Positions 248 to 4,551 of a stretch of 38,424 bases of DNA are shown in pieces. The stretch is from positions 1-38,424 of the forward strand of contig NZ_MNBL01000118.1 in NCBI RefSeq assembly GCF_001879695.1. Direction: 5' to 3'. The DNA comes from Nioella sediminis (GTDB lineage Bacteria; Pseudomonadota; Alphaproteobacteria; Rhodobacterales; Rhodobacteraceae). The stretch's first letter is position 1. Every line of letters starts with the position of its first letter. The notes beneath the pieces were generated by a model, which was given only the letters and a program-made list of their open reading frames with translations, made no database searches and was not told where the DNA came from. Both the position numbers and the translations under genes were made by a program.

Positions 248-1465
248 GTGCAAAGACGGGACGTATTGGCAGCGGTTGCGGCGGGCGTCGCCGGGACGTT
301 TCTGCCGATGGATCGGGGGATGGCCAGCGGAGCGCGGCTGACCGGCTATCTGCGGACGAACTGGAGCCGCGATCCGTTCTGCTTCGGGTCTTACTCCTAC
401 ACACCGCGCGGGCTGTTTCGCGCCGCGCATCGCAGGCTGGCGGAACCGGTGGCGGGACGGATATTTTTTGCCGGGGAGGCCGCAAACCCGGATTACGGCA
501 GCACCGTTCACGCGGCCTATGAATCGGCGGGCCATGCGGTCGAGGCCATCGAGGAGGAAGATCACGGGGATATTGCCGTGATCGGGGCGGGCATTGCCGG
601 GCTGCGCACGGCGCAGATGCTTGCCGATCTGGACTATGACGTGACGATCTACGAGGCGCGCGACCGGATTGGCGGGCGGCTATGGACGGACCGCAGCCTC
701 GGGGTGCCGCTGGACCTTGGGGCGAGCTGGATTCACGGGATGGAGAACAATCCGCTTGTCGGTCTGGCGGAGGATGCTGGCGCGACATTGGTCGAGACCG
801 ATGAAGAGATTGTCTTTCGGCTGAGCGGCGGGGCGTTGCTGGACGCGGAGGAGGTGCCGGACTGGCTGGAGGAGGTCATCTCGATCCAGCACAATGCCGG
901 GGCAAGGCGGGACCAGATCAACCTTGCCGCGTTTCGCGCCCCGACCGATTATGGCGGCGCAGAGGCGGTCATCGCCGAGGGATATGACCGGCTGGTGCCG
1001 GAACTGGCCGGGGACTACACGCTGCTGACCGGCCATGTGGTGCAGCGGGTGACGCTGGGCGGGGGCATCCGGCTGGGGTTTGCCGATGGCACAGAGGCGC
1101 GGCACGATGCGGTTGTTGTCACCGTGCCCCTGGGTGTCTTGCAGGCAGGTCGGATTGTCTTTGACCCGGCCTTGCCGGACACCAAGCAAGAGGCCATTGC
1201 ATCGCTTGGCATGGGGGTGCTGGACAAGCTCTACCTGCAATTCGACGCACCGTTCTGGGAGGGCGATCCGACCTGGATCGTGACCGCTGATACCGGGCTG
1301 CCGCGCGGGCAGTTCAACCAGTGGCTCAACCTGTTGCCGGTTCTGGGCGAGCCGATTCTGCTGGGGTTCAACGGGGCCGATGCGGCGCGGGAGCTGGCGG
1401 GGCAGGATGATGACGCGTTGGTTGGTGCGGCGCTGGCGGTTCTGGAGCGGGCTTATGGGCTTTAG
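248..1465 (+). CDS. Flavin amine oxidase with circularly permuted domain order, Tat signal
   Basis: Predicted FAD-dependent oxidase of primary or polyamines, probably exported by the Tat system (QRRDVLAAVAAG at residues 2-13). The usual family order is Rossmann FAD motif, then substrate domain, then a C-terminal segment with the GSYSY and RIFFAGEA..STVHAAYES motifs. Here that last segment comes first (W39, GSYSY 47-51, RIFFAGEA 71-78, STVHAAYES 85-93). The dinucleotide motif VIGAGIAG (111-118), EARDRIGGR (136-144) and the rest follow, and the protein stops after LERAYGL, just where the C-terminal segment normally starts. No second copy of that segment lies downstream. A GTG at 248 is preferred because the Tat motif then begins at residue 2; an in-frame TTG at 236 is the alternative. 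Length 405 aa. The oxidase family is clear; the substrate is not. Confidence 0.85.
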   Translation: MQRRDVLAAVAAGVAGTFLPMDRGMASGARLTGYLRTNWSRDPFCFGSYSYTPRGLFRAAHRRLAEPVAGRIFFAGEAANPDYGSTVHAAYESAGHAVEAIEEEDHGDIAVIGAGIAGLRTAQMLADLDYDVTIYEARDRIGGRLWTDRSLGVPLDLGASWIHGMENNPLVGLAEDAGATLVETDEEIVFRLSGGALLDAEEVPDWLEEVISIQHNAGARRDQINLAAFRAPTDYGGAEAVIAEGYDRLVPELAGDYTLLTGHVVQRVTLGGGIRLGFADGTEARHDAVVVTVPLGVLQAGRIVFDPALPDTKQEAIASLGMGVLDKLYLQFDAPFWEGDPTWIVTADTGLPRGQFNQWLNLLPVLGEPILLGFNGADAARELAGQDDDALVGAALAVLERAYGL

Positions 1466-2706: not shown

Positions 2707-3414
2707 ATGCTGAAGGAGTTTTTCAGATCTGAATCGGGCGCAGTGACCACGGATTACGTGGTGCTGAGCGCGGGCGTCGTGGGCGTCGGCATTGCGGTGC
2801 TGAATTCCACGTCGGCGGGCATCGAGAACCTGGCTGGTGACATCGACGCGACCCTTCGTGGACAGATCGTGAATTCCAGCTTTGCGCGGCAGAGTTATTT
2901 CGACGATTTCGAGGACGGAGCAGGGTTCTGGTTCGGCGGCGTGACCGATGGCTCGGACGCGGCCTATGGCGGGCTTCTGGGCCCCTATGGCGGCAGCGGC
3001 GGGGCCGAGATCGTGACCCGGACCTATGACCTGATGTCGGGCTATGATGCTGCGGTGATCGAATTCGACCTGCATGCCATCGACAGCTGGGACAATGAAG
3101 AATTCATCATGTTCGTGGATGGCAACCCGATCAGTTCCCACAACTTCAATTGGCAGTCGGACGGGGTGACAGGCAGCTGGACAACCTCGGATGGCAACTA
3201 CAACGTCACGGTCGAGCCGTCCGGCGACCGTGGGCATATCGGCTATAGTTCCAGTTGGTCCGATCAGAGCTTTACCGTCCGGGTGGAAGTGACCGACCCC
3301 GGCCCGTCGATGAGTGTCGGCTTCGGGTCTACCCTGAACCAGAGTGTCCATGACGAAAGCTGGGCCGTGGACAATGTCGCCGTGACATCGACCAACGACC
3401 CCTCTGACGTCTGA
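2707..3414 (+). CDS. Flp-pilin-like N-terminus fused to an extracellular beta-sandwich domain
   Basis: Function unknown. The first 33 residues look like a Flp/Tad-type prepilin: a short charged leader, a cleavable Gly (G11), Asp-Tyr at +5/+6 (D16, Y17) in place of the usual Glu-Tyr, then a hydrophobic helix (18-32). Flp pilins usually end soon after this helix. This protein continues for about 200 residues rich in Asp, Gly, Ser and aromatics, with an FEDG start (51-54) and a DNVAVTST end. That pattern resembles jelly-roll or lectin-like extracellular domains. GGAGAG lies 8 nt before the ATG. There is no tad gene nearby, so any prepilin peptidase would act in trans. It may instead be a membrane-anchored surface protein. 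Confidence 0.65.
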   Translation: MLKEFFRSESGAVTTDYVVLSAGVVGVGIAVLNSTSAGIENLAGDIDATLRGQIVNSSFARQSYFDDFEDGAGFWFGGVTDGSDAAYGGLLGPYGGSGGAEIVTRTYDLMSGYDAAVIEFDLHAIDSWDNEEFIMFVDGNPISSHNFNWQSDGVTGSWTTSDGNYNVTVEPSGDRGHIGYSSSWSDQSFTVRVEVTDPGPSMSVGFGSTLNQSVHDESWAVDNVAVTSTNDPSDV

Positions 3415-3420
3415 GACGGG

Positions 3421-3819
3421 TCAGCTGAGCCCCAGATCCATCAGTGACTGAATCTCCGAGCGGCTGGTGCCCGCAACGATGCGGCCCAGTTCGGCGTCGC
3501 CACGTAGCACGACCAGGGTCGACCGGCGCGGGATATCGAGGCTTTGGGCCAGTTCGCCTCGCCCATAGGTATCCCAATCCACGCGAATGAAGCTCATTGC
3601 CGCGTCATAGGCGGGGTTCTCGGCGCGGATCGCCTCGACATGGCGTTCCTGGGTGCGGCAGGTCCCGCACCAGGGCGCGAAGAAATCGACGAACAGCGTT
3701 TCGCCGGCGGCAAGGCGCTGCTGCACAAGGCCGGGCGTATAGTCGATATTGCTGGCCCCGGCACGGCCCGCCAGTAACAGCGTGGCTCCGGACATGATCA
3801 ATAGCTCGCGTCGGTTCAT
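3421..3819 (-). CDS. Periplasmic thioredoxin-like protein (WCGTC)
   Basis: Thiol-disulfide oxidoreductase of 132 aa with a twin-arginine-like signal (MNRRELLIMSGATLLLAGRAGA). The active site is WCGTC (C51, C54) after the beta strand FVDFFAP. The segment where thioredoxins carry the cis-proline (I-P-T-L) reads RRSTL here, so Ser100 appears to replace it. The gene lies 12 nt downstream of ccdA on the same strand, so it probably receives electrons from CcdA and reduces periplasmic thiols. It could serve cytochrome c maturation, or a SoxW-like role as in SoxV/SoxW pairs, but no sox or ccm genes are in the window. GGGAGA lies 6 nt before the start. Confidence 0.85.
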   Translation of the reverse strand: MNRRELLIMSGATLLLAGRAGASNIDYTPGLVQQRLAAGETLFVDFFAPWCGTCRTQERHVEAIRAENPAYDAAMSFIRVDWDTYGRGELAQSLDIPRRSTLVVLRGDAELGRIVAGTSRSEIQSLMDLGLS

Positions 3820-3831
3820 CAGGTTTCTCCC

Positions 3832-4551
3832 TTACAGGGCTACCGAGAGATCCTGCAGCCAGTAGGGCAGGATATCGAGCAGCCAGATTTCGATTGCATG
3901 GTGCCAGCGCAGCAGGATCGCGGTGCCGACGAGGATGAAAATGCCGCCAAGCAGCGGGCGGGATCGTTCGGCGATGGCCTGCATCAGCGCTCGGCGACGC
4001 TGGAAAAAGGACCGCGCGCCATAGCCAAGGGCGAGGATGATGGTGGATACGCCAAGGGCAAAGAACACCATGATCGCCGCTGCGCGACCGATTTGTTCAC
4101 CGGCACTGGCCAGCGCGATGGCGCCACCGAGGGTTGGGCCAACGCAAGGCGACCAGACCGCGCCAAGCAGCGCACCGCCAATGGCCTGCCCCTGCCAGCC
4201 GTCGCGGCCATTCAAGCTGGACATCTGGCTGTCCGCTCCGGCGGACACGCCTGCAGTTGCGGTGGCGAAGGCGGCGGAAAAGCGCGGGATCAGCAGGACA
4301 AGGCCAAAGGCGATCATCAGAACCGCGCCCGCCTGCCCTATGGCTTGTTCATCAATGCCAACGGCTCTTCCGGCCAATGCGACAGTCAGGCCGAGCGCCA
4401 CGAAAGACAGGCTCATGCCCCCCGCCAGCGCCAGCGGGCCGAACCGGCTGGCCTGCAAGGAGCCCGCCAGCACGATGGGCAGCACCGGCAGAACGCAGGG
4501 GTTGATGAGGGTCAGAAGACCCGCGCCATAGGCAAAGACAAGTTCCAACAT
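3832..4551 (-). CDS. ccdA: CcdA/DsbD-like transmembrane electron carrier
   Basis: Inner-membrane protein of 239 aa with about six hydrophobic helices. It carries electrons from cytoplasmic thioredoxin to periplasmic thiol partners. The two redox cysteines are visible in their usual contexts: NPCVLPVLP (C19) in the first helix and WSPCVGPT (C136) in the fourth. The region around residues 100-120 is the hydrophilic cytoplasmic loop. The downstream thioredoxin-like gene is very probably its partner and is co-transcribed. The start ATG has only a weak purine-rich site upstream. Confidence 0.92.
   Translation of the reverse strand: MLELVFAYGAGLLTLINPCVLPVLPIVLAGSLQASRFGPLALAGGMSLSFVALGLTVALAGRAVGIDEQAIGQAGAVLMIAFGLVLLIPRFSAAFATATAGVSAGADSQMSSLNGRDGWQGQAIGGALLGAVWSPCVGPTLGGAIALASAGEQIGRAAAIMVFFALGVSTIILALGYGARSFFQRRRALMQAIAERSRPLLGGIFILVGTAILLRWHHAIEIWLLDILPYWLQDLSVAL

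Follow-up and report, generated by a model that had tools for sequence, protein, structure and literature searches.

Does the amine oxidase gene at the beginning of this Nioella sediminis contig encode an enzyme whose chain has been circularly permuted, and is the arrangement confined to one genome or typical of a whole subfamily? The window, by which we mean the whole stretch of DNA analysed, is an entire contig of 38,424 bases (C22). The gene is an open reading frame (ORF) of 405 amino acids with a GTG start codon (248-1465, + strand) and begins 247 nucleotides from the contig start. A sequence-only reading had placed the motifs that normally close flavin amine oxidases ahead of the FAD-binding motif, and the residues stand as it described: W39, DPF (42-44), GSYSY (47-51), RIFFAGEA (71-78) and STVHAAYES (85-93) all precede VIGAGIAG (111-118), and the protein ends in LERAYGL. 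The features of the gene and its downstream neighbour are as follows.

248-1465, + strand: gene for the putative circularly permuted flavin amine oxidase (ORF, PF01593 matches, homologues with identical order)
248-334, + strand: twin-arginine (Tat-like) leader, residues 1-29, a motif-level assignment (R3 and R4 invariant in 20 of 20 rows)
335-562, + strand: moved C-terminal segment, residues 30-105 (PF01593 positions 375-442 at residues 35-102; omega, pLDDT)
563-856, + strand: FAD Rossmann domain up to the helical region, residues 106-203 (PF01593 positions 1-67 and NAD_binding_8; GxGxxG at 113-118)
857-883, + strand: shortened helical substrate region, residues 204-212 (gaps relative to the canonical relative L010 after P204 and I211)
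926-1462, + strand: second FAD/substrate half with the putative flavin-site lysine K327, residues 227-405 (PF01593 positions 184-366)
1533-2633, + strand: chorismate synthase (aroC), a downstream neighbour outside the enzyme (PF01264, E 4.7e-135)

Along the protein, the pieces of the Pfam profile PF01593 run from 375-442 to 1-67 and then to 184-366/370, the order that the earlier reading had proposed to check. On the DNA they lie at 347-550 (profile 375-442, E 1.4e-10), 593-796 (1-67) and 926-1471 (184-370). The native protein scores 198.1 bits against a gathering cut-off of 19.8, which places it within the superfamily, and it departs from the canonical linear order of the profile. Since the moved segment on its own gives 45.4 bits (E 9e-12), a chance match is excluded. 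As a control, the sequence was rotated by omitting the leader and returning the moved segment to the end of the protein. The PF01593 score rose to 213.8 bits and the matched stretches fell from three to two, the second of which runs from 184 to 442 across the seam. Against LSD2, the best PDB match, the rotated sequence scores 147.6 bits (native 136.7), with one stretch spanning the seam at the cost of a three-residue gap. Rotation restores a continuous alignment to the canonical family across the seam, and together with the profile order it bears out the proposal of a true circular permutation. The seam of canonical relatives consists, with some variation, of ...YG, a further two or three residues and then (L/I)PxP; permuted proteins often end in ...YG or ...YP and often have P or PxP between the leader and the W..DP motif. 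Judging from these sequences, the residues lost at the cut are a few at most. Profile order and predicted structure make it very probable that the window protein is an LSD1/polyamine oxidase-type flavin amine oxidase whose chain has undergone true circular permutation. For annotation there is a pitfall here, in that the protein has a good Pfam score, yet the single best stretch hides the changed order. The best 25 of its 39 NCBIfam matches all score below their cut-offs.

The predicted structure is in line with a single intact MAO-type fold. AlphaFold2 with a 19-row alignment gave one compact fold (mean pLDDT 81.0, pTM 0.83), a model that leans on how the alignment was placed, with 4 permuted proteins and 15 canonical pieces entered as separate rows at homologous positions; with just 6 rows in the alignment the prediction came out poor (pLDDT 47.7). 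In the 19-row model residues 1-18 and 145-149 fall under 50, and a helix at 87-102 is followed, after five residues, by a strand at 108-112 that forms the first Rossmann strand. It had been asked whether residues 30-105 complete the fold. They lie within it, with block means of pLDDT between 65 and 94, and their packing is predicted from these confidence values. Among the 50 Foldseek matches listed, the best PDB entries are LSD2 (4fwj_A, TMq 0.66), LSD1 and maize polyamine oxidase; an aligner that keeps chain order cannot fully match a permuted protein.

The amine oxidase domains of LSD1 and LSD2 (KDM1A/KDM1B) are the best PDB matches of the window protein by sequence as well as by structure, and the FAD motif, the lysine and the W..DP...AGEA motifs align; K327 aligns with a lysine of LSD2. 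However, LSD2 has the canonical order, and chromatin substrates are not implied for the window protein. LSD proteins carry SWIRM and tower domains that the window protein lacks, and SWIRM, by which a KDM1 histone demethylase would be recognised, is not among the 7 Pfam families listed for it at E 0.001. The polyamine and spermine oxidases, a family with a longer helical substrate region, are the next best solved relatives by sequence (1b37, 7oxl), and 1b37 is so by structure too; 7oxl, unlike the window protein, is canonical in the alignment. A profile of the permuted proteins matched 94 PDB entries, and among the best 60 each best stretch covers part of the profile; order was read residue by residue for the LSD2 chains and one spermine oxidase, both canonical. 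The permuted enzyme belongs to a known superfamily and is not a new kind of system. Natural circular permutation is uncommon among the large enzyme folds that have been studied well, and in the titles and abstract openings of the open-access PMC papers listed, no flavin amine oxidase with a permuted chain is described.

The FAD motifs and the putative flavin-site lysine are conserved. The window-type loci, hereafter group A, were aligned in 20 rows (members L080 and L082 stand outside the alignment), and R3, R4, W39, D42, Y49, E77, H88, G113, G115, G118, E136 and K327 are invariant in all 20, as is the GGR motif (G142, G143, R144). The three Nioella pairs have overall omega values of 0.25-0.30; for the moved segment taken separately the values are 0, 0.053 and 0.064. 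All are rough because there are few substitutions between Nioella species. By this sequence measure the permuted gene, including its moved segment, is under purifying selection. The catalytic body spans 291-299 amino acids in group A (21 measured) against 320-353 in canonical loci, and alignment with L010 locates the shortening in the helical substrate region. With about 40 residues fewer than canonical enzymes in all 21 members measured, no common partner gene among the compared loci and a patchy distribution (15 of 394 genomes in the family), the protein might be a non-catalytic relic or have been repurposed, for example for binding FAD or a ligand instead of acting as an oxidase. That is unlikely in view of the invariance, in 20 of 20 rows, of K327, E77, the GxGxxG glycines and the W..D/Y-S motif residues, and of the low omega both overall (0.25-0.30) and in the moved segment (0-0.064).

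As an active permuted oxidase, the protein would be built and would work as follows. The last 75 or so canonical residues sit between the twin-arginine leader and the Rossmann domain. The cut falls in a short loop that canonically lies between ...YG and the (L/I)PxP ahead of the W..DP motif, and a tight turn now connects what was the C-terminal helix with the first strand of the Rossmann domain. Motifs suggest that FAD would be bound by the Rossmann motif and that the group A protein would fold in the cytoplasm and then be exported by the Tat system in its folded state. A lysine near the flavin N5 has a role in flavin amine oxidases; from what is known of the family, the amine would be oxidised at the flavin with K327 near N5, an imine or aldehyde would be released, and oxygen or some other acceptor would presumably take up the electrons. 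With its helical region shortened, the enzyme probably has a more open or altered substrate entry. Through the permutation, two parts of the FAD domain that are otherwise apart become contiguous at the N-terminus, which may help folding around the cofactor or its loading. The earlier reading had proposed a Tat signal at the new N-terminus. The arginine pair is found in 20 of 20 rows, followed by a hydrophobic stretch recognised by eye, and it stands before the moved segment; the Tat signal is a putative one, judged from the motif. The window protein is probably exported by the Tat system and active as an oxidase, as far as its sequence tells.

How the order arose is constrained by the leader. 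The canonical proteins L061, L065, L068, L070 and L072 have, by eye, a twin-arginine leader ahead of the Rossmann domain, and L010 has the same with a longer linker. In L010, L061 and L065, close bacterial relatives with PF01593, the leader is followed by GxGxxG and the protein ends in AGEAT...VHGA; they differ from the window protein in carrying the segment at the C-terminus and in a catalytic body that is larger by about 40 residues. The route first suggested, tandem duplication followed by loss of the outer parts, fails in its plain form, as it would not keep the leader, which precedes the moved segment. Because the leader stands ahead of the segment, either insertion of the segment between the leader and the Rossmann strand or duplication with an inner deletion would be needed. 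The same order would fit a stepwise gain of a domain, with the C-terminal segment first copied to the front of the protein and the old one lost afterwards. We consider this quite unlikely: the gene and the neighbours examined hold no second copy, no classed locus is mixed, the moved segment supplies the profile positions that are otherwise missing, and the seam closes within a few residues; moreover, it is less a different outcome than another path to the same arrangement. No second copy of the segment follows the stop codon, where the next gene is chorismate synthase, as the earlier reading had said of the missing copy. Own-genome search and neighbour annotation found no neighbouring gene bearing the segment in canonical order, which that reading had named as a finding that would speak against it. 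A search of the same genome with the permuted protein returned the gene itself and three weak matches (best E 8.1e-5). PF01593 matches also occur on contigs C195, C156 and C19, and in the own-genome protein search none is a close homologue.

A scan of contigs recovered permuted relatives in Nioella sp. MMSF_3534 (96% identity), Nioella ostreopsis Z7-4 (92%) and a Rhodophyticola metagenome-assembled genome (52%), and a fourth relative, L010, with 41% identity and canonical order. At this level of identity to L010, the two orders can be set side by side to test in what order the chain folds, how the cofactor is loaded ahead of Tat export and how the substrate gains access. In the genus, a full-length permuted protein occurs in 3 of 6 genomes. 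In the family, 34 of 394 genomes gave a match at E 1e-20 and 15 of 394 hold the permuted protein (genome counts from the larger searches are lower bounds because only some of the first-look candidates per genome were scored). These 15 comprise the window genome, G005 and 13 fetched loci (L030-L042, with L039 cut by a contig end), one of which, L035, sits on a contig of 4,595,413 bases; among the remaining family matches, the 15 fetched are canonical and 4 are outside the fetched set. The search of the order matched 6 of 196 genomes at E 1e-30, all permuted and including L058, and that of the class 4 of 385 (3 permuted, 1 canonical). A second alphaproteobacterial family has the permuted protein in 4 of 17 genomes. 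Fetched ORFs holding both segments were classed with two profiles, one for the moved segment and one for the remainder, and ORFs of other FAD proteins without a moved-segment match were left outside this scheme. Distinct loci numbered 40 for the permuted order and 27 for the canonical one (the latter from 31 rows, 4 of which are repeats), and none was mixed. Group A accounts for 22 permuted loci, 18 in the family of the window and 4 in the second alphaproteobacterial family. Group B (L069 type, 16 loci) and group C (L103 type, 2 loci) belong to one family of another bacterial class, where 18 of 198 genomes have the permuted order and 4 further genomes gave canonical matches. Across 274 genomes of that other class, the L069 protein at E 1e-25 found the query genome and one more, the match covering query residues 99-420. 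No relative of the window or L069 proteins was found by tblastn at E 1e-30 in 72,556 plasmid records, and a search of viral contigs with the permuted profile found none. The permuted loci of the other class are L069 (G937), L084-L098 and L067, with L103 and L104.

The question of one genome or a subfamily is answered in favour of a whole subfamily, with two more permuted groups in another class. Since related bacteria and members of a second class have the layout too, comparison of sequences shows a conserved family of enzymes and not an error of sequencing. That an ordinary amine oxidase gene was rearranged during assembly or sequencing, as might be suspected of a gene only 247 nucleotides from the start of contig C22, can be dismissed as extremely improbable, since independent assemblies share the permuted order (92-96% identity in two Nioella assemblies, away from contig ends, and 15 of 394 family genomes, including the 4.6-Mb contig of L035) and the frame is open and under purifying selection.

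Groups B and C share the permuted order with the window type, and the cut site looks alike by eye. They differ in a longer catalytic body (318-319 and 325-328 residues) and in having, by eye and from putative starts, no twin-arginine leader with a hydrophobic stretch. Among the 22 window-type loci the seam is 26 residues long in 18 and either 27 or 31 in three (the value for L041 is unreliable). It is likewise 26 in 12 of 16 L069-type loci (the other 4 were missed by the pattern), and 29 in both L103-type loci. Seam length was considered as a sign of a single origin and dropped, as a turn so tight may be structurally fixed.

In a 66-row tree of re-linearised sequences, there is support for each of groups A (97/93), B (100/100) and C (100/100), and 3 changes of the label are required. 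Forcing all permuted rows together costs 10.2 log units and is not rejected (p-AU 0.142); in a set reduced to 62 rows by removing two canonical rows on long branches together with both L103-type rows, the same constraint costs 6.1 and is borderline rejected (p-AU 0.0458). From these sequence trees one, two or three origins of the permuted order are possible. A tentative proposal, which we do not favour, is that the same MAO/PAO loop may have been opened, and the former ends joined, more than once (up to three times, in the window, L069 and L103 types). By bringing two pieces of the split FAD domain together at the N-terminus, permutation would alter folding around the cofactor, which in the window type takes place before Tat export. 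If true, this would be a repeated, adaptive permutation in a major enzyme superfamily.

Comparison of the neighbourhoods of 19 loci by ORF clustering found no gene common to the window-type loci that would point to a substrate. Neighbours are shared in subsets only: among the three Nioella loci and between L009 and L113, L112 and L114, L114 and L116, and L117 and L118. The L069 gene (L117, 8171-14687) adjoins two short-chain dehydrogenases, with genes for a GFA-type enzyme, LysR and MarR regulators and an MFS transporter close by, and some genes of this neighbourhood are common to L118. It is perhaps a catabolic cluster, whose neighbours name no substrate. L041 falls on the tree within the clade of the second alphaproteobacterial family (five rows, 96/90), and its locus, L113, has several neighbour genes in common with L009; tree and neighbourhood disagree on its placement.

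In Nioella sp. MMSF_3534 (L007) the two genes upstream of the homologue encode a polyprenyl synthetase and a DXP synthase. Downstream in the window, an ORF of 235 amino acids (2707-3414) is kept in the other two Nioella loci; it gave zero matches in a Pfam search at E 1e-5, and its start looks pilin-like by eye, with a small leader. On the minus strand, 3421-4551 encodes a thioredoxin-like protein with a leader, adjoining a DsbD/CcdA-type membrane protein, and the two are likely to form a periplasmic thiol pair.
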